A DNA stretch of 45,080 nucleotides from Mesoaciditoga lauensis cd-1655R = DSM 25116 (lineage in GTDB: Bacteria > Thermotogota > Thermotogae > Mesoaciditogales > Mesoaciditogaceae). Each line of letters starts with the position of its first letter. The first letter of the stretch is position 1. Of this stretch, positions 3,174-42,373 are shown in pieces. The notes beneath the pieces were generated by a model, which was not told the DNA's origin, made no database searches, and saw only the letters and a program-made list of their open reading frames with translations. The stretch spans positions 80,267 to 125,346 of the forward strand of contig NZ_KN050691.1 of the NCBI RefSeq assembly GCF_000745455.1. The letters run 5' to 3'. Made by a program: the position numbers and the translations under genes.

Positions 3174-3473
3174 TTATTTTCCCTCGTGATTTTGGATATC
3201 TAACACAATCACATCCTCTTCATGGTAATTTCCAAGAGAGGCTTTTAAATTTATGAAGTGTCTTCCAGCGTTTAGGTTCTGAGTATCGATCATAACTTTT
3301 AAGCTTCCGGTTTCAATCACATCATAATTTGTTATAGTTTGGACTTTTGTATCCGTGGCTTGTTCTGTAATTGTGGCTTCAAAACTATCCGGAGTTATGG
3401 GGTTTTTGTCTTTGTCGCTATAATCCAGATAAAGGCTTACGGTTTGCCCTTGCTCGACGATATATTTCAGCAT
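3174..3473 (-). CDS. Putative tail-tip accessory protein (BppU-like beta domain)
   Basis: This 99-residue, beta-rich protein (VEQGQTVSLYLDYSDKD at the N terminus, IVLDIQNHEGK at the end) resembles the N-terminal beta domains of baseplate upper proteins and other small receptor-binding accessories. AGAAGGTGTTAGC precedes the ATG, which lies two bases after the fibre stop. It is probably made with the fibre and attached to it; this is inference. Confidence 0.4.
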   Translation of the reverse strand: MLKYIVEQGQTVSLYLDYSDKDKNPITPDSFEATITEQATDTKVQTITNYDVIETGSLKVMIDTQNLNAGRHFINLKASLGNYHEEDVIVLDIQNHEGK

Positions 3474-3474
3474 G

Positions 3475-5244
3475 CTAACACCTTCTTATCGTGGCTTTCA
3501 ATTCTTCTACCCTTCTTATCGTGGTTAAACAGAAAGGCTTTGTATTTATCACAATTTGTTCAATTTCTTCCAACGCACTTGCTAAAGCTATATTTTCATT
3601 CGCTATTTTTTCTTCCACGCTTGCCAAGGATCGGACATTATTTCTTATCTCTTCAATGGCACCCCCAAAGAATTCGTATATGTTCATCATCTGTTCGTTT
3701 GTGGAAGCCTTGACGGTTGTTTGATTTGATATGCTTTCTTGTGTACCTGCTATGCTTTCAATTTGGTTGCGGACGCTTTCCAATGTGGATGCGTGAAATT
3801 CAAAGATGTTCATCATCTGCTCACAAGTGTTTATAAGAGTTTCTTTCAATTGAGTGTTCTCTTCTGCTACGCCGGCTTTTGATGTGATATCATTCTTGAT
3901 TGATTCCAGGAAGCTTGCCACAAAGTCGTATTCATTGATGATTTTTTCCTCTGTGTTAATGGTAACTTCGTTATCTTGGGTGATGGCTTCAAATGAAGAC
4001 GCTTTGCCGTCTTTTGTGTTAGATATTTGTTCAAGGTTAGAGGCTTTGAAATCATACTCTTTGATTATCTGTTCAAGTGAGTTAACAGCAACGGTAAGAG
4101 ATTGCGTGATTTGTTCATTTGCTGAAGAAACACCTTCTGAATTTTGAGTTATCAATTCTTCGTTTGAAACAGCGGATGAACGGCTTTGTGTGATAGCTTC
4201 TTGTGTATTTATTTTATTGGATAATTCATGGGTAACGGCTTCTTGTGTAGATGAAATATTATCTTGAACATGGGTTATCTTTTCAAACACGCCAGCGAAG
4301 AATTCTTTGATTATGCCACCTTGTTGTGCGAACAGCCACCATTTGTGATATGGTTTTATGTATGTGATTGTAGGATCAGTGGAGAGGTATTTGTGTATAA
4401 AGTAATATTCAAATTTTTCATATAATTGATCATCTGTATTTCTTACGTCTGCATAAATAACTGACATTGCTGCCGATGTGTTATTGGCAGTTGTAGATAT
4501 CAACGCACTGTTATCGACTTGTCCATAGATTGTAGCACCTGTTTTTATAAATTTAAATTTATGATATTCATTGGTTGCTAAATCCGTGGTAATTATATTT
4601 GTGTCATTAATACATGTATGTATATCAGAATCACTATGAAATACAGCAAAGAAATCACGAACCGTGCCACCATCATTCGTCAACTCACAGCCGAAACAAA
4701 ATCCATCGTCATCAGAGTTATTATTAATATATACAGTATTGTGAAAAAACTTTGTTTCAATAACTACATTGTCTACATATTGAAAAGATCGAATTGCATG
4801 ACCAAGCCATCCTACCGTTACACCATTAACTGTTGTTGTATCTACAGTTCCTGTCCCAGAGAAAATTGCTCCATTATTCACACTTAAATCAATAGCATCT
4901 CCTGCTGTGGAATAACTTCCTAACTGTTCACCACAATATAAAGTATATACCCACTTATTTGTATCCAATGCTGTTTCATTCCTAAAATCATCACCAAATA
5001 TCATCGTTTCATCTATATTACTCAAATCTTTGTTTGCAGAGTCATCTACATATATTTTAGTAGTCCCTTTTTGTAAAACAGGAACTTTTGCCCACGGTGT
5101 AGAGGCTTCTTCATTCCAATGTGGGGTGCTCCTTCCACCAAACCAAAATTTTCTTCTATCTACGGATATGGGGATATTAGGTATCTTGATTTGTGCATCG
5201 TGTTCTTTATCACCTGTGTATTTTATTCCTATCTCATACAGCAT
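3475..5244 (-). CDS. Tail fibre with jelly-roll head and 14-residue repeat stalk
   Basis: This 589-residue protein has three parts. Residues 1-65 have a short beta domain of DUF2341-like appearance. Residues about 80-285 read as a concanavalin/LamG-like jelly roll (FGDDFRNE..LDTNKW at 83-98, then alternating beta strands). Residues 319-570 consist of 18 consecutive 14-residue units with Glu invariant at position 3 and mostly Ile/Val/Met at position 5. The C terminus repeats the short motif TIRR (575-578, 585-588). GAGGCGATTATA precedes the ATG. It is probably a trimeric host-recognition fibre in which the repeat forms the shaft; the carbohydrate-binding role of the jelly roll is inferred. Confidence 0.75.
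   Translation of the reverse strand: MLYEIGIKYTGDKEHDAQIKIPNIPISVDRRKFWFGGRSTPHWNEEASTPWAKVPVLQKGTTKIYVDDSANKDLSNIDETMIFGDDFRNETALDTNKWVYTLYCGEQLGSYSTAGDAIDLSVNNGAIFSGTGTVDTTTVNGVTVGWLGHAIRSFQYVDNVVIETKFFHNTVYINNNSDDDGFCFGCELTNDGGTVRDFFAVFHSDSDIHTCINDTNIITTDLATNEYHKFKFIKTGATIYGQVDNSALISTTANNTSAAMSVIYADVRNTDDQLYEKFEYYFIHKYLSTDPTITYIKPYHKWWLFAQQGGIIKEFFAGVFEKITHVQDNISSTQEAVTHELSNKINTQEAITQSRSSAVSNEELITQNSEGVSSANEQITQSLTVAVNSLEQIIKEYDFKASNLEQISNTKDGKASSFEAITQDNEVTINTEEKIINEYDFVASFLESIKNDITSKAGVAEENTQLKETLINTCEQMMNIFEFHASTLESVRNQIESIAGTQESISNQTTVKASTNEQMMNIYEFFGGAIEEIRNNVRSLASVEEKIANENIALASALEEIEQIVINTKPFCLTTIRRVEELKATIRRC
3535..4290 (-). repeat. 18 tandem 42-bp units encoding a 14-residue repeat
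   Basis: These codons (residues 319-570 of the fibre) fall into 18 units of exactly 14 residues with no insertion or deletion. Glu occupies position 3 of each unit (321, 335, 349 ... 559). Typical units are TQEAITQSRSSAVS and NLEQISNTKDGKAS. The DNA has diverged between units while length is kept, which argues for structural selection rather than recent slippage. Confidence 0.9.
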
Positions 5245-6210: not shown

Positions 6211-7098
6211 TTAATTAGTTGCTTCCTCCGTGGAGGTGGCTTTGATTTCAATATCTCTCAAGTTAGCGACAGGATCGTTCTCAGGAACGGTGCATTGTAC
6301 CCAGAAAGTTACGCTATCACCAGGAGCCATGGTTGCTAATCCAGATATATCTGAACTTGTCAAGGTTGCAGAAGTGTACGCCGTAACACTTTCACCGCTC
6401 GCAAGAGCATCTCCCAAATAAACAGTACCACCTGAGTATCCCCATTCACCCGCATTGGGAGTTGTGGGGGTTGAAGTGTTTTCGGTAAGCAAGAACCCAT
6501 TTGGTGCGCTTGCGGTTTTCTTTATCACACTAACGGGTTGTGCGGAAACAGTGAAAGAACTTCCAGTATCAGAGAGAGAGCCAACGCTTCCAACCAAAGT
6601 TCCCATCGAACCGGAGTTATCGGGGGCAAAGCCGTACCTTCCTACGTCCGAACCCGCACCAGAAACTAAATCCGCAAGCAAAATAGATACATTTGTGTAC
6701 TGCTTAGTAGTTTCAGTGTTCTTGAGAAAGAGTTGTTGCCGTTTAATTCTGTCATCAGCATTCGTGGTATTTGTGGCAAATTTAGCCTTTCCACTTAATG
6801 TATTCACATCTTCCAATACCCTTGTTCCAGCGGTGAATGCCACGGCTGTATCACCAGAAGCAAGAGCGTCTCCAAGATAGACAGTTCCAGAAGAATACCC
6901 CCATTCACCCGTGCCAGGAGAAGTTGGTGTAGATGTGTTCTTTGTGAGAAGATCGCCGTTAGGAGAAGATGTGTTATATTTTCTTACCTCATCAGGTTCT
7001 GCCGAAACAGCGAATGAACTACCACTATCTGACAAACTCCCTAAAACCATTCTTATTCGTTGTGTAAAACCACTATCTGCATAAAATACTAAGCCCAT
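6211..7098 (-). CDS. Duplicated beta-domain tail protein
   Basis: This 295-residue Ser/Thr/Gly-rich protein contains two copies of a domain of about 73 residues, at residues 20-92 and 173-245. Both copies read GSLSD.GSSF.VSA.P, then LLT.NTSTPT, then GEWGYS.GTVYLGDALASG. The linker between them is unrelated. The C terminus resembles a small Ig-like adhesion or structural domain (PGDSVTFWVQCTVPENDPVA). AAAGGAGGTTTTAAAAC precedes the ATG. It is probably a baseplate or fibre component, perhaps for receptor binding, inferred from position between tail hub and fibre genes. Confidence 0.55.
   Translation of the reverse strand: MGLVFYADSGFTQRIRMVLGSLSDSGSSFAVSAEPDEVRKYNTSSPNGDLLTKNTSTPTSPGTGEWGYSSGTVYLGDALASGDTAVAFTAGTRVLEDVNTLSGKAKFATNTTNADDRIKRQQLFLKNTETTKQYTNVSILLADLVSGAGSDVGRYGFAPDNSGSMGTLVGSVGSLSDTGSSFTVSAQPVSVIKKTASAPNGFLLTENTSTPTTPNAGEWGYSGGTVYLGDALASGESVTAYTSATLTSSDISGLATMAPGDSVTFWVQCTVPENDPVANLRDIEIKATSTEEATN
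6364..6582 (-). repeat. Second copy of internal domain duplication
   Basis: Codons for residues 173-245 of the tail protein. The paralogous copy lies at 6823-7041. The two are clearly alike in protein (GSLSD, NTSTPT, GTVYLGDALASG) and partly alike in DNA. Confidence 0.8.
6823..7041 (-). repeat. First copy of internal domain duplication
   Basis: Codons for residues 20-92 of the tail protein, duplicated at 6364-6582 with an offset of 153 residues. Confidence 0.8.
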
Positions 7099-7114: not shown

Positions 7115-7357
7115 TTAAGCATTTAGACTTGATTTTGCAGTTATTTCCATTTCACCATTTCTGCCGTTGATATAGTTGAGAACTACGATATCTCCGACGT
7201 TGGCAGAGACAGAAGAACGTAAGTTTTTAACGATTGTATTGCTATCAATCAAAACAACGTTATATCTCCCAGAAGTTATTGAATCCACAATTCCAAGCAT
7301 AGGCTCGGAAAAATCATTTCTCCACGCATTCGCCAAGCTCTCAAGGATATCAAGCAT
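7115..7357 (-). CDS. Small baseplate protein, possible OB-fold spike component
   Basis: From the ATG at 7357 the protein has 80 residues. An amphipathic N-terminal helix (LDILESLANAWRN) is followed by a compact beta region containing GIVDSITSGRYNVVLIDS and NVGDIVVLNYINGRNGEM, the pattern of small OB-fold tail-spike proteins. AGAGGGTGAG lies upstream; the start is inside the end of the hub gene, so the two are coupled. Three residues upstream is a weaker alternative start (7366). Assignment is by fold impression and by position next to the hub. Confidence 0.5.
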   Translation of the reverse strand: MLDILESLANAWRNDFSEPMLGIVDSITSGRYNVVLIDSNTIVKNLRSSVSANVGDIVVLNYINGRNGEMEITAKSSLNA

Positions 7358-8639
7358 ACCACTCACCCTCTTTAATGCCCGTAACTGTTGTTGAAAAACC
7401 GGTAGCGGGAGTAAAATTCGTTGTTGTTCCAGTTATTATCAAGATTATAGGGATATTGAATTTTGGATGAGTTAATGTAAAAGAGTACCCTGGCAAGAAA
7501 TCATTGTAAATTGGCATTCCAGCGATTGAAAAAGAATAAGGATTTCTCTTAAACTTTGAAAATGCAAGTAATTTTTTGGCAAGTCTCAGAGCCGTATCGT
7601 TGTCTGTTATAACGTGATTGCTCACACTTTGGGGTAATTTACCACCGGCTTGTGTTTCGAGCTCGCTATCAGCGTATTTCGCACTATAAAACGGCGTCCC
7701 TCTGTTAATGACGGTAGCGGATAACGTAAAATCATAACCAAAATCTGCTCCTGTATCATTTGTAATGGTAACCGTGCAAAAGGTTTGTGAGGCATCGTTA
7801 ACTACGGAAAAATTAGTGAATCCGGATGGTGAGATCCAATTCACAACCGGATCTTTTGCTTTAATTGAATCATCTGTGGAATAATGAATTTCAATTGTGG
7901 TATCTGTCCCGTTAGTCGCCGTTCCCGTTTGCTCTCCAAAGTCTTGTGCCTGATTCAATTCGTCTTTGCTTTTCCCTTTCACATCCACTTCTGTATAAAT
8001 ATCCCATTGCGAATCCTGCGGTGAAAAGGATTTTATGTTGAATGTCGGGATTTCAAGTTGAACCGGTGTTCCAATAGCATAAGTTTTGAATTTTCCTTTC
8101 CCATCGAAAGCCCACGCCAAAAAGTTTACCTGTGTAATTTCATTCACGATATCTAAGATGGACTCCTTGACAAATTGAACACCGCTTACTTGTGAAATTA
8201 TAGGAGTGAGAGAATATTCTATTCCTTCATCATCCAGAATACTTGAAAGAATCGTGTTCGTATCTGTATTCTCAAAGTAATCCGTTGTTTTCTTGATTTT
8301 TGCCCACTTCCAAGCGTCCACAAATGTGATTTGTACGGTTTGAGCGGAGTTTGCATATGAAATTCCACCTATATGGTCAATCTTCCCTTGAAAGATATCA
8401 AAAATGCTCATCTTTCCATTTACGTAGTCAATCCTTTGAATTTTTATTTGTTGTCCACCAAAAAGCTCGGCTTCTTTGTTTGGGTTGTCTGGATCAAATT
8501 GTCCCCTCGCATTAGGAACCGTCAGCGTACCCGTGGAAATTCCGTTAAGTTTCCGTGAAATACTTAACTTATTGATAGCCGTTTGAAAAGGATTCCCATT
8601 TTTATCGTAAATGATAACTCTTAATTTTGTGTAATTCAT
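7350..8639 (-). CDS. Tail hub protein (gp27/Tal-like)
   Basis: This 429-residue protein resembles the hub proteins of long-tailed phages. The N-terminal part (about 1-200) has IKIQRIDYVNGKMSIFDIFQ, IDHIGG and VQITFVDAWKW, followed by a helical segment (TILSSILDDEGIEY, ILDIVNEITQVNFLAWAF). The C-terminal part has ALRLAKKLLAFSKFKRN and a second beta domain ending in FNIPIILIITGTTTNF. This is the usual two-barrel hub layout in which a trimer closes the tail tube. An extra beta insert of about 100 residues (TIEIHYSTDD to AKYADSELE) lies between. The ATG overlaps the stop of the previous gene as ATGA. No peptidoglycan hydrolase domain is seen. Confidence 0.65.
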   Translation of the reverse strand: MNYTKLRVIIYDKNGNPFQTAINKLSISRKLNGISTGTLTVPNARGQFDPDNPNKEAELFGGQQIKIQRIDYVNGKMSIFDIFQGKIDHIGGISYANSAQTVQITFVDAWKWAKIKKTTDYFENTDTNTILSSILDDEGIEYSLTPIISQVSGVQFVKESILDIVNEITQVNFLAWAFDGKGKFKTYAIGTPVQLEIPTFNIKSFSPQDSQWDIYTEVDVKGKSKDELNQAQDFGEQTGTATNGTDTTIEIHYSTDDSIKAKDPVVNWISPSGFTNFSVVNDASQTFCTVTITNDTGADFGYDFTLSATVINRGTPFYSAKYADSELETQAGGKLPQSVSNHVITDNDTALRLAKKLLAFSKFKRNPYSFSIAGMPIYNDFLPGYSFTLTHPKFNIPIILIITGTTTNFTPATGFSTTVTGIKEGEWYA

Positions 8640-12639: not shown

Positions 12640-15600
12640 CTAACGCCTACCCAAAATTTGCCTTTGCTTTGTAATCTCCGTTGTCAATCTGTCAAGAATT
12701 TCATCCGCCGTTTGCGTTGGAGTTTGCGAACCGTTTACCTGTATAGCGCCTGGTGAAATGACAACTTGTGAATTATTAGTTGTTGACAGATTAGGAGAAG
12801 GTGTGGGCGAAATCGTTGGAGTAGTGATTTTTGGCGCATTAATTCCTATATCAATGGATGAATTATCCTTCATCTTGTCAATAAGTCGGTTAAACTTTCC
12901 CCAAATATTATTAAAAGCTGTTCCGGCGTTGTCATCCAACTTTTTAAATGGATTGAAATCGAATTTATGCTTGAAATTATCAACGAAAGTATCTATATAC
13001 CGATGAATTTTCCCGTTGTAACCAAATTCATCACTGAAAGATTCATCCAAACGGTTCGTAACTTCATCTGCTTTTAATGGCAAAAGCCCGAACTTTTCGA
13101 GCATTTTTTCAATCGCACCACTGACACTATCTCCAATTTTTTGAGCCATATCATCCCATCGCTTTGAATTTTCATCTGTGGTTTTCTTAGTATCATCTTC
13201 GGTTTCGCCAAGATAATCTTTTATCATCTTTTTCATCTTATCTGTGGAAGTCGTTCCTTTTGTTTCCAAATCGTCCATTGTTCCAGAAATAGCATCTCCA
13301 ACTGTTTTAGATTCTTTTTCTATTCCTTGCATCATATATTTGATAGTATCAAGCTCTCCCTTAGATAATCCATCTTTCATAGCAACTGAAATAAAAGCTG
13401 CAAGCTCTTGAACCTTTTTCCCAATTATTCCCTGAGTCACAAGCGATTGAATCAAGGAGTTTAGGATGGCTTTCTTCAAGGTTGAATCAAAGGCTTTTTT
13501 AAATGTGTCGTAACGCACTGTTTTGTTCAAATAATCATGTAACCCTTTATCGAGGGAATCTTTTTCGGATTTTCCAAGGCTATCGTAGTACTTTTTCATC
13601 TCTTCTGTGCTCTTGAATGTCATGTGTTTTACGTCTTCTAAGTACTTTTTCATGTAATCCATTTTCTGGGATTCTGACATATCTTTGAAAAAATTCACGT
13701 ACTTTGTTAAAGCGCTTTCGAGCCCAGAAGTTAACGTTTGTTGCCATTTGTCTATCTGCTCACCAAGTTTTTTGATGCCATCAATCTGTGATTCAATCCA
13801 CTCATTGGAAGCTTTATCACCCATTTTTTCAAGTTGCGCTTTGAATTCGGCATATTTTTTTCTCAGGACAGATGCTTTCGCTCCGTTTCCTTCCATTTCT
13901 TCATCTAAGCCATCGAACGCTTTGGAAAGCTTTTCAATTCCCTTTATCTGCCCTTCGATCCACTCCGGAGTAGCTTTGTCTCCCATCTGCTTTATCTGAC
14001 GTTGAAGCCTTTCAAATCTTTCTCTTGCGATTTCAGCGCCAGCTCCTGAACCTTCCATCACTTTCCCAAGTTCTTTGAACGAATTTGCAAGGTCATCAAG
14101 CGTTTGTTGTTGATCTTTTAATTTGGCAAGCTCATAGTTATACTGTTGGACACTTATCTTTCCATCTTCTAATTGTTTATTCAAAGTATCGATCTTATCT
14201 TTGATGGCTCTTGATTGAGTACCAAGGTTTTCAAAATCAGAGGCGAGATCTTTGAATTCCGGATGCAAACTTGAAAGATCTTCGAACTTTGAGTTGAGAA
14301 CATCCATATCCGTTGAAAAATCTTGAATGGAACTCTTAATAGAATCAGAAGACTTTATTATCTCATCTGCATACTCTTTCCACGCCTTCTTTAAATCTTC
14401 GGAGTTTGCGAGCGCTTCTTCACTTATTCCAAGCCATTTATACATTGCTTCGTTTCCTTTATAAACGCTCTTCACAAATTCATCATAACTTTGCGGTTTT
14501 ATGGCTTCCGCAAATTTTTTCATCGTTTCAATGTTTTTCTTCTCTTGTTCATTCATAAAATTAAGAGTGCTTGTTAAAAGTTGAATGCCAGCGATAATCC
14601 AGCCGATAGGTCCAGAGCCGGCTTCGATCGTAGTACTGAGAATTTGAATACCGTTTGCCACGAGTTGAAATCCATCTGCTATTCCGGAAAAATCCTGCCC
14701 TGACATGTTACCAATTGCATCTATCAAACCAGCAATTGCTCCTAATCCATTTTGGAGTTCTTGAAGGCTCTTTTTAGACGCTTCCCTTGCAGCTTTAATT
14801 GCTTTATTTTTTGTGTTTTCTATAGCATTATCTACTAAGCCAAGAGAAGCTTTCAACGCTACGGGATTATCCTTATAAATTTCTTGAAGTTTTGTTTTGA
14901 GAGCTGTTAACGCTTTCATTTGCTTGTCTGTGCTTCCTTGATACATCGTACCAATAGCATTCACAAGACTTTGAGTCGTGCTGTAAACGTCTTTTGTGAT
15001 TGAATTAAGTTGCGTCCTCAATTCATCTGGCTTTAAATTTATATATTTGATATCTTTCGTTTCTTGTGCCAATGTTTCGAGCTTTCGTTTTAAAAGTGGA
15101 ATTTGTTCATTAGCATTCGATGTGAGCGAAAGCTTAAAGTCTATGTTTTCAAGATCTTTCACGTCGTTGTTATATCTTTCCAACCGGCTTTCCATATTCT
15201 GAATGGCAATGTTCGTGTTATCCAATTGGGTTTGCCACTCTTTCAATTGCTCAATTTCGATCTTCGTTGCGCCATTCTTAGCGATGTTATCGTGTAATTT
15301 TGCGATTCCTTCAGAAAGCGCCTTGGCATTCATTTTCAGGGTTCCAAGAAGATCTCCTGTTTTCTCGTAGTATTTTCTTCCATCTGCCAGTGCCTTATTA
15401 GTTTCTTTGAGATCTTTTTGAAACGCTTTAAACCCTGTTTCCTTTGCGATATCCATCAGAAACGATTCTAATGGCTTTATAACGTTTTTAATCCCACTTT
15501 TGAGTGTATTTACACCCTTTGCCATTTCTGATACACTATGGGTAGTTTTTGCCGTGTTGGCTCCATAGTTTTTTATCTGTTTGGAAATAGCATCGATGAG

Positions 15601-18306
15601 AGGCTTCAATTTTTTGAATTCTTCAATTTCCTTATTTGTAAGCTTTTCACCTTTTGCTTTCTTCTCTGCCAAAGCATTGTAAGCGTTCGTGTAAAGCGTG
15701 TATTTTTTCCTTAAAAACTCCAAATCGTTTAATGTAACCCCATGTTCCATATTAAGTGCGTGCAAAGAATCGGTGAGTTGTTCCGATATATCCTTTGTTT
15801 TATCAATGCTTGTGTTCAATCCATCTTGTTCTTTTTGGAGTTTTGATACCTTTTCGCTTACCATAGAATATGAGCTCTTCAAAACATCAAGATATTTCTT
15901 GTCAGCATCTGAAAGCTCTCCGGATTTCGCTTGAAGTTTTGAAATATCCGTGATTGTTTGCTTTAAAAGGTTTTGCTTTGCCTTGTAATAATCAAGATCT
16001 GACATATTCAAATTTTGGCGTGCAAATTCAAGCTCTTTTCCCTGTTCTGCATACTTAGTAGCGATATCTTTCAATTGAGAGAGACTTGTAACGGTGTTTT
16101 TGACGGCTTCTGTAACTTTTTTCTGTGATTTTGCCTGTTCGTTTGTAGCGGCAGTAACCTTTTTCTGTATGCCGAGGACTTCGTTTAAGGCTTCCTGTGC
16201 CTGATTAACTACTTTTTGTTGCTTCTCAACTTCGGCGGTTTGTTCCTTTTGCTGCTTCGTGAGTTTTAAAAGCTCATTCTGGTATTTTGCCATCAATTCC
16301 TGTTTCTTTTTCTCATCCGCAAGTGCATTCGCTTCAAGATCTTTGTTTTGATTTCTCAAATGTCCTATCTTTACGAGGGCTTCGCTTTCTTTTATCGTGA
16401 GTTCGTGCCGCTTTTCCTCCAAATCTTTGAGAGAAATTAAGCCCTTGTTGTAATCGTTGTTGAGTTTCCATTCTTCCTTTTTGTAATCGTTGTAACTCTT
16501 TTGAAGCTTCGTTATTTCTTCCTGGTTTTTCTTTATTCTTTCCTGAGCAGTTGCCGTATTTTGCAATGCATCAATTTCTTTGAGTGTGTAGCTTATGCCT
16601 TCTTTTGTGAATTTCAACTCTTCTTTAGCAGCATCAAGCCTTTTTTGTGCCTCTTTTAAAGCTTTTTCGGCATTCATTTTTGCAAGTTCTTTTCGTTTTT
16701 CAATATCTTCTTGAATCGCTTTTGCATTCAAATTCCAGGCACCGGTTTCATCGTTAATTCCTTTTATTGATTGCGGTGCAAGTTCTGCCAAATCTTGTGA
16801 TATCTTTTTCAAACGTGCTTTTTCATCCGCAGTTTTATTGGCTTTATCTCTCAAGGCTTCATACTCACTTAGAAGAGCGCTTTCGTTATCTGCTTGTGCT
16901 TTCTGGGATTTCGCAAGCTTATCAGTGGATGCTATGAGATCATCATATGCCTTTTTTTGAGCTTGAATCCATCCAACAAGAGCCGTAATGCCTATGATAG
17001 CTCCAGCAACCCATCCAAAGGGGGAAGTGGCAAGAAGTGAAAAGCCTGCTATCAATCCAGGGAGCATTCCAACAAGCGATCCCAGAATCCCTACAAGCAA
17101 AGCACCGGCTCCACCAAAAGCGGTTATCATCACAATAGCTTGTTTCAAGTTAGGATTCAAATTGTTAAACCCATCAATTATGCCTTTCATAAAATCAATT
17201 ATCTGCTTTACAACAGGTAAAAGAATGCTTCCGACTTCCGCTCCAAGATCTTTTATGTTGTTCCATAAGATCTTCATTTGAGCGTTGAATCCTTTTTCTC
17301 TTGCTTCTGCCATTTCTGCAGCATTGTTGGATTCCACCAAGTATTTCGAATAATTTCTAATAGCATCCGTTTGATTCATCAAAATTTCAACAGCTTTGAT
17401 ACCTCTTATTCCAAAGGTTGTTTGCATCTTTGTCATTTCAGCTGTGGAATCTATCGCGCCACCAAGTTTTTGTTTCAATTCATCCAAAATATCCGCAAGG
17501 GGTCTCATATGTCCCGCAGCGTCAAGAGCATTTATGCCAAATTGCTTGAAAAGCTGAGGTGCAGCCATGTAAGCTCTGTTCAAAGCCGTGCCCGCTTCTT
17601 CTGCACTCATACCAGCGTTTTTCAATAAGCCAAGTTGTGTAACCACATCTTGCAAAGGTATATGCATTGCATAAGCCGTTGATGTAACGTTGGCAAGTCC
17701 TGCTCGTAACTCTGGAAGGATGATCTTGAACTCTTTAACAGCACCGGCAAAAATGTTCGTTACACGATTTGCTTTTTCTTGTGCACTAAGATAATCAGGC
17801 ATTTCCTTCACATAGGTGTTCATGGCATCTGTCATGATGTCCGTTGCTTCTGCCATGGAACCAAATGTTGCTATTGATAAAGTTGCGGTTTGTTCAACAG
17901 ATGAAACTATCTGTTCATAAGTCATTCCGGCGGATGCCATGTTGTAATACGCCTTCGTGATTTCACTTGCACTCGTCATGTGCGCTTTGGAATATTCGAT
18001 CGCTTTTTCTTTTAAGGTATCTATTTGATCAGCGTTTAATTTCATAACGCTTTGAAGATCTGCCATGGCTTGATTCAATTTTCCCGCTTGATAAACGGCA
18101 AGGCCAAAAACCCCTTCAATTGCTGCTCCGGCACCCAACAAAGCATGAGATGCCTCACCTATGGCGCTAAATGCGGTTTTCCAGCTTTTCTCGGCTTTGC
18201 CCGCTTCAACTGTTAAGCCATTTGCGGTTTGCCTTGCTTCAATCATTGATTCTTTAAATTGTCCTGTTCTTGCTTTAACATCTATCCAAAGCGATCCTAA
18301 GTTCAT
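12640..18306 (-). CDS. Tape measure protein, TP901-type
   Basis: This 1888-residue protein spans the tail lumen and sets tail length. The N-terminal TP901 core is clear at about 80-330 (ASEITKAYYNMASAGMTYEQ; GLLKNAGMSAEEAGTALN). Membrane-like segments lie at about 395-460 and again near 1210-1260 (GPIGWIIAGIQLLTSTLNF). Between them run long coiled coils rich in Lys, Glu and Gln. A tandem repeat of about 52 residues with the motif QMGDKA..EWIE lies near 1430-1530. The ATG at 18306 follows AAGAAGGTG; a GTG at 18312 is an alternative. At about 1.5 angstrom per residue the tail would be near 280 nm, an inference. No lysozyme or peptidase motif is seen. Confidence 0.9.
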   Translation of the reverse strand: MNLGSLWIDVKARTGQFKESMIEARQTANGLTVEAGKAEKSWKTAFSAIGEASHALLGAGAAIEGVFGLAVYQAGKLNQAMADLQSVMKLNADQIDTLKEKAIEYSKAHMTSASEITKAYYNMASAGMTYEQIVSSVEQTATLSIATFGSMAEATDIMTDAMNTYVKEMPDYLSAQEKANRVTNIFAGAVKEFKIILPELRAGLANVTSTAYAMHIPLQDVVTQLGLLKNAGMSAEEAGTALNRAYMAAPQLFKQFGINALDAAGHMRPLADILDELKQKLGGAIDSTAEMTKMQTTFGIRGIKAVEILMNQTDAIRNYSKYLVESNNAAEMAEAREKGFNAQMKILWNNIKDLGAEVGSILLPVVKQIIDFMKGIIDGFNNLNPNLKQAIVMITAFGGAGALLVGILGSLVGMLPGLIAGFSLLATSPFGWVAGAIIGITALVGWIQAQKKAYDDLIASTDKLAKSQKAQADNESALLSEYEALRDKANKTADEKARLKKISQDLAELAPQSIKGINDETGAWNLNAKAIQEDIEKRKELAKMNAEKALKEAQKRLDAAKEELKFTKEGISYTLKEIDALQNTATAQERIKKNQEEITKLQKSYNDYKKEEWKLNNDYNKGLISLKDLEEKRHELTIKESEALVKIGHLRNQNKDLEANALADEKKKQELMAKYQNELLKLTKQQKEQTAEVEKQQKVVNQAQEALNEVLGIQKKVTAATNEQAKSQKKVTEAVKNTVTSLSQLKDIATKYAEQGKELEFARQNLNMSDLDYYKAKQNLLKQTITDISKLQAKSGELSDADKKYLDVLKSSYSMVSEKVSKLQKEQDGLNTSIDKTKDISEQLTDSLHALNMEHGVTLNDLEFLRKKYTLYTNAYNALAEKKAKGEKLTNKEIEEFKKLKPLIDAISKQIKNYGANTAKTTHSVSEMAKGVNTLKSGIKNVIKPLESFLMDIAKETGFKAFQKDLKETNKALADGRKYYEKTGDLLGTLKMNAKALSEGIAKLHDNIAKNGATKIEIEQLKEWQTQLDNTNIAIQNMESRLERYNNDVKDLENIDFKLSLTSNANEQIPLLKRKLETLAQETKDIKYINLKPDELRTQLNSITKDVYSTTQSLVNAIGTMYQGSTDKQMKALTALKTKLQEIYKDNPVALKASLGLVDNAIENTKNKAIKAAREASKKSLQELQNGLGAIAGLIDAIGNMSGQDFSGIADGFQLVANGIQILSTTIEAGSGPIGWIIAGIQLLTSTLNFMNEQEKKNIETMKKFAEAIKPQSYDEFVKSVYKGNEAMYKWLGISEEALANSEDLKKAWKEYADEIIKSSDSIKSSIQDFSTDMDVLNSKFEDLSSLHPEFKDLASDFENLGTQSRAIKDKIDTLNKQLEDGKISVQQYNYELAKLKDQQQTLDDLANSFKELGKVMEGSGAGAEIARERFERLQRQIKQMGDKATPEWIEGQIKGIEKLSKAFDGLDEEMEGNGAKASVLRKKYAEFKAQLEKMGDKASNEWIESQIDGIKKLGEQIDKWQQTLTSGLESALTKYVNFFKDMSESQKMDYMKKYLEDVKHMTFKSTEEMKKYYDSLGKSEKDSLDKGLHDYLNKTVRYDTFKKAFDSTLKKAILNSLIQSLVTQGIIGKKVQELAAFISVAMKDGLSKGELDTIKYMMQGIEKESKTVGDAISGTMDDLETKGTTSTDKMKKMIKDYLGETEDDTKKTTDENSKRWDDMAQKIGDSVSGAIEKMLEKFGLLPLKADEVTNRLDESFSDEFGYNGKIHRYIDTFVDNFKHKFDFNPFKKLDDNAGTAFNNIWGKFNRLIDKMKDNSSIDIGINAPKITTPTISPTPSPNLSTTNNSQVVISPGAIQVNGSQTPTQTADEILDRLTTEITKQRQILGRR
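13750..14058 (-). repeat. Tandem repeat of about 52 residues in the tape measure
   Basis: Two adjacent units encode MEG.GA.A, then QMGDKATPEWIEGQIKGIEK or KMGDKASNEWIESQIDGIKK. The boundaries are approximate. Such duplications add defined increments to tape measure length. Confidence 0.65.
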
Positions 18307-18308
18307 TT

Positions 18309-18865
18309 TCACACCTTCTTTATCTTGACGATACTGCCCAGTTCTAACAAGTCATCTACACTTTTTTCCTCTTCTTCACCGCTCATTTTCTTATATCTTT
18401 CCGCAGCCTTTTCTAAATACAAATTCACCTGTTGAAAAGTCATTTTTTGGATCTCTTCGATTGTCCAACCGTATTCTTTCGAGAGGAATTCGAATGTGCT
18501 TGCGATGGCGCTACCTTCGGCATGTTCTCCGGCACCACCATCGCCACCGTGTTTTTTAGTGTTTTTTCAATCTGGTTTTGCTCAAGAATTTTTTTAACTC
18601 CATCTACAGCTTGAATGGGATATATTTCATCCATTATCTTTTTCTCATCTTCCCCTATGGCGATAGCAACTGCTTTAGCGGCTATTTCTGTTCCTTCCAC
18701 AATGTATTTAGATAGGTCTTCACCTTTTACCATTCTCTCAATGTAATCATTAAAAACTCTCATGAATTCTACATATTTCTTTATGTTCAATGGCGGCACT
18801 TCAACTGTTCTTTCGCCTACCGTGATTTTTATCTTTTTAGGTATCAGAATATCTAATTCTTCCAT
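18309..18865 (-). CDS. Tail assembly chaperone, frameshifted GT form
   Basis: This product needs a -1 ribosomal frameshift at 18551-18557. The first 105 codons are those of the short chaperone. After the slip, translation continues in the -1 frame for 80 codons to a TGA at 18309-18311, giving 185 residues. The extension begins HGGDGGAGEHAEGSAIA, a flexible Gly-rich linker, and continues STFEFLSKEYGWTIEEIQKM and QQVNLYLEKAAERYKKM, which is protein-like and typical of gpT-type extensions. It ends against the tape measure start. In lambda-like phages the GT fusion at low level chaperones the tape measure and tube. The reading frame and site are seen; frameshifting itself is inferred. Confidence 0.85.
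18440..18865 (-). CDS. Tail assembly chaperone, short G-like form
   Basis: This 141-residue in-frame product lies between the major tail protein and the tape measure, as does lambda gpG. It is a small acidic, helical protein (VPPLNIKKYVEFMRVFNDYI; AAKAVAIAIGEDEKKIMDEI). The last 36 residues, after the slippery site, are low-complexity Ser/Lys/Arg-rich (AHSNSSRKNTVGQSKRSKK) and overlap the better conserved-looking -1 frame, as expected for a shift region. It coats and folds the tape measure during tail assembly. Confidence 0.8.
   Translation of the reverse strand: MEELDILIPKKIKITVGERTVEVPPLNIKKYVEFMRVFNDYIERMVKGEDLSKYIVEGTEIAAKAVAIAIGEDEKKIMDEIYPIQAVDGVKKILEQNQIEKTLKNTVAMVVPENMPKVAPSQAHSNSSRKNTVGQSKRSKK
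18551..18557 (-). other. Programmed -1 frameshift slippery site A_AAA_AAC
   Basis: On the minus strand the codons CTA AAA AAC contain the canonical heptamer A AAA AAC in the correct phase. The -1 frame is open from here for 80 codons and carries the gpT-like extension. Placement between tail tube and tape measure genes is the classical position for tail chaperone frameshifting. Confidence 0.88.
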
Positions 18866-40876: not shown

Positions 40877-42373
40877 GTGAAAAATTATGCTTTGCTTATA
40901 GTTTTTAGCATCGTACTGGCATTAATTCTTTCCAGCTGTTTGAAATTTGTTCCTCCAAAACCTCAAATACCCACGAATCTAAAAGTTATTTCTTACACAT
41001 CTAATACAATATCTATTTCATGGTCAGAAGACAATTCAAGTAATAATGTTTCATTTGAAGTATGGCATTCAATGGATGGAAGCGATTTTACTTTAGCAGC
41101 CACTACATCTTCTGATAATTATACAGATATCAATCTCTCTCCAAATACAATGTACTACTATAAAGTAAGAGCTCATAACGACGGAGGATATTCAAATTTT
41201 TCAAATGTAATATCACAGAAAACAAAAGATGTTTCTCCTATTGCTCCATCTAATCTTTATGTAAGTTCTTATTCAACTAATACAATAACTCTTTCGTGGA
41301 ATGATAACTCAAACAATGAAACTGGATTTGAAATATGGAGATCATTGGATGGTTATTCTTTCTCAAAAATAAAGGATTTGAGCGCTAATACCACTTCTTA
41401 TACAGATATAGGTCTATCACCAGATACAACATATTATTATAAAGTAAGAGCTTATAATGATGTGGGATATTCGAGTTATTCGAATATGGCTTACCAAACA
41501 ACTGACACTGTTATCACAATTCCAACAGCTCCAACTAATTTAAAAGTTACAGGTTCTGATTCTGATAGTATTAGTCTTAGGTGGGATGATAATTCAGATA
41601 ATGAAGATGGTTTTAAGATATATCGCTCATCTTCTTATTATGGAACTTATAGCTTGATAGGTACAAATATAGATGATGACAACTATTATACTGATAAAGG
41701 TTTAGATTCAAATACAACGTACTATTACAAGGTAACTGCCTATAATTCAGCAGGGGAATCTTCGTACTCCAATATAGTTTCAGGAACCACTTCGGCACCA
41801 TCTTATGCTCATGCCAAAATATTGCAAACCAATTCTTATGTAGATAGTATTGGGTATCTCAATGTAATTGGCGTTGTTCAAAATGATGGCACAGAAAACT
41901 TAAAATATGTAGAAATAGATGCTACGTTCTACGATAAGAATAATAATGTTGTTGGGAGCAATTTTACTTACACATATATGGATATACTCACGCCTGGTCA
42001 GAAATCCCCATTTGATGTTTTTATCTCTAAACCTGCAAATTATGATCACTATAAGCTTTCTCTCTCTTATGAGGAAACAACTGATGAACCATTCCAAGGA
42101 TTGAAAATCCAAGGAGTAACTCATCATACGGATAATTACGGGTATTACTATATTGATGGTGAAGTGAAAAATACAAACACAACTAAAGCAAAATATGTGG
42201 AAGTTGTTGCAACGCTCTACGATTCAACAGGCAAAATAGTATATGCCAAGTTTACCTATACAAATTCCGATATATCTTATGGCCAAACATCTTCATTTGA
42301 GGTTATAGTAAATACCTCTGAAGTGCCTGGAAATATCGTAAGTTTTGATTTACAAGTCCAAGCTTCAGATTAG
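40877..42373 (+). CDS. Fn3-domain lipoprotein with FxLYD-like C-terminal domains
   Basis: This 498-residue protein has a signal peptide with lipobox LILSSC (about 16-21), so it is probably lipid-anchored and exposed. Three Fn3 domains follow (about 30-115, 120-212, 214-305), with repeated motifs like NTISISW, TYYYKVRAYND and YSNI. Two tandem C-terminal domains (about 308-395, 400-495) share YLNVIGVVQNDGTENLKYVE / YYIDGEVKNTNTTKAKYVEV and resemble FxLYD domains. Start GTG at 40877 follows a poly(G) tract. Such proteins bind surfaces or proteins. It could be lysogenic cargo or a host gene beside the prophage. Confidence 0.8.
   Translation: MKNYALLIVFSIVLALILSSCLKFVPPKPQIPTNLKVISYTSNTISISWSEDNSSNNVSFEVWHSMDGSDFTLAATTSSDNYTDINLSPNTMYYYKVRAHNDGGYSNFSNVISQKTKDVSPIAPSNLYVSSYSTNTITLSWNDNSNNETGFEIWRSLDGYSFSKIKDLSANTTSYTDIGLSPDTTYYYKVRAYNDVGYSSYSNMAYQTTDTVITIPTAPTNLKVTGSDSDSISLRWDDNSDNEDGFKIYRSSSYYGTYSLIGTNIDDDNYYTDKGLDSNTTYYYKVTAYNSAGESSYSNIVSGTTSAPSYAHAKILQTNSYVDSIGYLNVIGVVQNDGTENLKYVEIDATFYDKNNNVVGSNFTYTYMDILTPGQKSPFDVFISKPANYDHYKLSLSYEETTDEPFQGLKIQGVTHHTDNYGYYYIDGEVKNTNTTKAKYVEVVATLYDSTGKIVYAKFTYTNSDISYGQTSSFEVIVNTSEVPGNIVSFDLQVQASD

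Follow-up and report, generated by a model that had tools for sequence, protein, structure and literature searches.

A 14-residue repeat in a candidate prophage tail fibre of Mesoaciditoga lauensis is predicted to be an ordinary heptad coiled coil made of 42-residue modules

A putative tail fibre protein encoded in the genome of Mesoaciditoga lauensis cd-1655R = DSM 25116 carries eighteen consecutive units of 14 residues each, and the question raised by this locus is whether so exact a repeat represents an unusual kind of fibre shaft, as a preliminary description of the sequence had proposed, or a familiar one. We analysed a window of 45,080 nucleotides (assembly GCF_000745455.1, contig NZ_KN050691.1, positions 80,267 to 125,346 of the forward strand), to which all coordinates below refer. 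The terminase, portal, protease, head, major tail and tape measure genes of the prophage lie upstream of the fibre open reading frame (ORF) and run in the same direction, and the gene order leads from the tape measure protein (12640-18312) through a tail protein (7350-8639) towards the fibre ORF, which is downstream of both on the same strand and thus within the tail module. On its 3' side are a 99-residue protein, a protein that weakly matches holins, and one that resembles metallophosphoesterases. Identification of the ORF as a tail fibre rests on this position and on a sub-threshold match to DUF2341, and no virion protein family was matched by it. Its parts are as follows.

3475-5244, minus strand: ORF of 589 amino acids in late (tail) module position, putative tail fibre or appendage protein
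4357..5103, minus strand: N-terminal globular region, residues 48-296, with kinship to a DUF2341-containing protein from another genome of the class
3535..4290, minus strand: eighteen 14-residue units, residues 319-570, in the register of the preliminary description (autocorrelation and unit tabulation)
3478..3558, minus strand: short C-terminal tail, residues 563-589, with no recognised domain and containing a 14-nt direct repeat

The N-terminal region (residues 48-296) is 26% identical (E = 1e-5) to a relative in another genome of the same class (L003) that passes the DUF2341 model strongly (7.4e-26), while the fibre ORF itself scores 22.7 bits against DUF2341 (Pfam PF10102), just under the gathering cut-off of 23.4. 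Judged by sequence similarity, this domain may be described as DUF2341-like. A search of the PDB with the N-terminal part returned nothing significant, and a lectin-like fold or role for the region is only a guess.

The repeat itself was described accurately, to the base: residues 319-570 correspond exactly to window positions 3535-4290, and all 18 units are 14 residues long with no insertion or deletion between them, as had been claimed. Glutamate occupies position 3 in every one of the 18 units, and the branched hydrophobic residue said to be usual at position 5 is Ile, Val or Met in 17 (I 13, V 2, M 2, N 1). In a BLOSUM62 autocorrelation, none of 2000 shuffles exceeded z = 4.7 at any lag, and the protein scored 10.4 for lag 14 and 8.4 for lag 28. 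At the DNA level, a degenerate pattern for five E-x-I units spaced 42 nt apart was found four times in the window and in 0 of 100 shuffles.

The autocorrelation maximum, however, was not at lag 14 but at lag 42 (z = 14.5), and it recurred at lag 84 (z = 9.7). Adjacent units had been thought to alternate in style, and a two-type alternation was rejected by label permutation (1852 of 2000 permutations). The unit types instead cycle every three, with a score of 16.0 for units of the same type versus 9.6 for units of different types, a difference matched by only 2 of 2000 label permutations. The region (residues 311-562) is thus made of six copies of a 42-residue module that contains three unit types, with the approximate consensus NxYxFxASxLExIx-NxxxxxASxxExIT-QxxxVxINTxEQIx. 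Units three apart share only about 47% DNA identity, indicating that the duplications are old.

4189..4314, minus strand: 42-residue super-repeat 1, residues 311-352
4063..4188, minus strand: 42-residue super-repeat 2, residues 353-394
3937..4062, minus strand: 42-residue super-repeat 3, residues 395-436
3811..3936, minus strand: 42-residue super-repeat 4, residues 437-478
3685..3810, minus strand: 42-residue super-repeat 5, residues 479-520
3559..3684, minus strand: 42-residue super-repeat 6, residues 521-562

A repeat of 14 residues can place hydrophobic power at any harmonic 14/k, and k = 4 gives the period of 3.5 that is the signature of heptads, while a period of 2 is the signature of beta structure. 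In the fibre ORF the period of 3.5 was dominant: its power of 14.1 compares with a mean of 0.9 for the shuffles and is twice their 99.9% level (7.1). Half-unit similarity, seen as weaker autocorrelation peaks at lags 7, 21, 35 and 49 (z about 4-5; 4.8 at lag 7), also points to heptads. When the register f-g-a-b-c-d-e is laid from residue 311, the residues I, L, V, M and F make up 72% of d positions and 39% of a positions, compared with 3% each at f and b; position b is 83% charged, and position e is largely Ala, Ser or Thr. The glutamate of the 14-residue unit falls at heptad b and its branched residue at heptad d. Across residues 297-576, every stretch of 42 residues kept the heptad phase between about -34 and +19 degrees, a drift of no more than about 50 degrees, which amounts to an unbroken register, so the observation that 14 equals two heptads was borne out along the whole array. 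One point against the coiled-coil reading is that, by coiled-coil standards, the core is polar: Q, N, E, T or K is common at a, and several units have Lys at the alternate d position.

Profile searches and structure prediction agreed with the periodicity. In a scan of NCBIfam, the repeats matched the Rad50 (2.9e-6) and SMC (0.005) profiles, which represent long coiled coils, over their full length, with scores so far under the family cut-offs (22.9 bits versus 1087) that they indicate a type of structure, shared through heptad pattern and composition, and not family membership. Neither a plain shuffle nor a 14-column-permuted version, which retained period and composition but scrambled the heptad, matched anything. 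AlphaFold2 run on residues 299-589 as a monomer from a single sequence gave three helices that took in almost all residues, with a pLDDT of 61 (70-80 near the C-terminus) and brief interruptions at two places, around residues 409-415 and 456-460. For residues 437-562, also as a monomer, a two-row self-alignment in which the second row was residues 311-436 (A4, gapless, 25% identity) gave one helix of 124 residues with a pLDDT of 94.7. There were no strands in either model; AlphaFold2 given one or two sequences leans to helix, and we weighed these models jointly with the sequence tests and not alone. Residues 311-576 contain one proline.

The preliminary description had held that the hydrophobic pattern is not that of a simple coiled coil. 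A 14-residue unit that equals two heptads in one register, coiled-coil profiles that match only the unscrambled repeat, and a helix in AlphaFold2 together contradict this central point: the 3.5 periodicity, the a/d core and the unbroken register are present in the sequence, and the helicity is predicted. The outcome that had been expected to tell against an unusual shaft, an ordinary heptad coiled coil, is what we found, here from single-chain predictions. We consider it very probable that the repeats form the continuous heptad coiled-coil shaft of a siphovirus-type prophage tail fibre or appendage. Of the earlier proposal, the fibre shaft remains plausible from the tail-module context, and its unusual build gives way to ordinary two-heptad units.

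A beta-structured shaft, either a beta-solenoid or a triple beta-spiral to which each unit would contribute a single short strand or a pair of strands, deserves consideration because stretches such as NEYDFVAS and QSLTVAVN, and the alternating hydrophobic residues of the type A units (Y-x-F-x-A), resemble strands, and because other phage proteins with 14-residue repeats (L045, L021 and L078) show strong period-2 signals. In the fibre ORF, however, the power at period 2 was 4.4 against a shuffle level of 8.8 and was not significant, whereas that at 3.5 was; the repeats match coiled-coil profiles, and strands are absent from the AlphaFold2 models. We therefore set aside the solenoid or spiral on periodicity and prediction, and regard a beta shaft as highly improbable.

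It is also conceivable, though unlikely, that the helices pack otherwise than in a parallel trimeric shaft, as an antiparallel hairpin or a chemoreceptor-style dimer in which the small residues at e and the invariant glutamate at b would serve helix packing. The prevalence of Ala, Ser and Thr at e fits such a bundle, as does the finding that, among 102 other genomes of the phylum, the 42-residue profile drew only chemoreceptor-like coiled coils, with weak E values of 0.002 and 0.007 (L005 and L006). Against this, the heptad phase runs on without a break or turn at which the chain could fold back, and the confident model of residues 437-562 likewise has no turn, although the low-confidence model has its two short breaks. 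Phage fibre coiled coils of known structure, moreover, are parallel trimers (PMC4786415).

Searches for relatives yielded little. Apart from a single viral-contig match that is 100% identical and apparently a record of the same prophage, searches of viral contigs, genome contigs, the 102 other phylum genomes, phages, plasmids and the PDB gave no homologue of the repeats; PHROGs, Pfam, NCBIfam, the PDB, phages and viral contigs revealed no homology to a known fibre family, and a literature search on 14-residue repeats in tail fibres found nothing. The neighbouring tail gene was likewise an orphan in the homologue search. The unit pattern had been suggested as a probe for phage fibres, and scans of viral and genome contigs for E-x-I and E-x-[IVM] at a spacing of 14 yielded numerous low-complexity or coiled-coil repeats that are unrelated to it. 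As the 42-residue profile gave no score for any of them, the motif by itself has no diagnostic value. The closest in motif was L078, a phage contig protein in which, as in the fibre ORF, a globular N-terminal part is followed by 14-residue units that show S-x-x-E-x-[IV]-x-[DN] with identical spacing. Its strongest hydrophobic period, however, is 2, with 3.5 second, whereas the fibre ORF is dominated by 3.5. It was rejected as a homologue when profile-profile comparison was not significant (probability 0.6%), and the likeness is probably convergent. The 5' part of L078 holds a 793-aa ORF on the minus strand with 23-24 units of SDxExVYDxxNKIx, 14 residues each. The scans also brought up a widespread phage protein (L024, L025, L065 and many similar viral contigs), whose ORFs of some 700-830 residues contain the 14-residue repeat ENLDKNIAYSEYIAE, and phage proteins (L045 and L167) with 14-residue units of ETIxDxDFELxVQx, whose strongly alternating hydrophobicity suggests that they are probably beta-structured.

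Returning to the heptad coiled-coil shaft, parallel trimeric coiled coils form the fibre shafts of T4 fibritin, the P22 gp26 needle, the phi29 head fibre, T7 gp17 and the SF370.1 tail-fibre hyaluronidase, and insertions of 2 or 6 residues break the coiled coil into beta layers (PMC4786415). The repeats of the fibre ORF contain no such insertions. Like these shafts, the protein, which is encoded in a phage tail module, has a heptad helical segment whose phase fits a rod. It differs from them in its 18 equal-length units, invariant glutamate and 42-residue super-period, in having its globular part at the N-terminus with no recognised C-terminal tip domain, and in showing no detected sequence homology; by analogy with T4 fibritin, the P22 needle and the phi29 head fibre, the rod is probably trimeric.

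We envisage a continuous left-handed heptad coiled coil, with two heptads per 14-residue unit, that would have grown by 42 residues, or six heptads, at a time. In this picture several parallel chains, three if phage fibres are a guide, would wind together around a core of Ile at alternate d positions, and the polarity of the chains and the location of the rod protein in the virion are likewise inferred. The rod would be stiff and, if continuous, would span about 37 nm (252 x 0.1485 nm), and it could keep the N-terminal DUF2341-like domain apart from the other end. Gapless units would keep the register, as the core would be disrupted by any change in length other than by multiples of 7, and because 14 is a multiple of seven, copies could be gained or lost without disrupting the supercoil.

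It could be argued that the 18 invariant glutamates at the exposed b position, together with the 42-residue super-period, form a functional surface along the rod that goes beyond helix stability, for example in ion binding, in lateral assembly or as a series of regularly spaced docking sites for a further tail protein, but we think this very unlikely. The pattern is real, and it does not call for a new category: however striking its exactness, the repeat of this orphan prophage protein comes down to a standard structural solution, a coiled-coil rod in which a module of 42 residues is repeated. For work on how fibre length evolves and on natural coiled-coil design, growth by whole modules and an invariant glutamate at an exposed position are small points of interest.

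Several other features of the window were recorded. The C-terminal end of the fibre gene contains a 14-nt direct repeat, CCTTCTTATCGTGG, at 3481-3494 and 3511-3524, one copy of which includes what is probably the ribosome-binding site of the gene that follows (3174-3473). A 295-residue protein encoded at 6211-7098 on the minus strand has two similar halves (VLGSLSDSGSSFAVSAEP... and SVGSLSDTGSSFTVSAQP...), an internal domain duplication, and both halves finish in the motif WGYSxGTVYLGDALASG. Adjoining the prophage late genes, at 598-1383 on the minus strand, is a patatin-like phospholipase (Pfam 4.9e-26). A 498-residue protein at 40877-42373 on the plus strand, opposite to the phage late genes, contains fibronectin type III domains, through which it matches phage tail-tip profiles.
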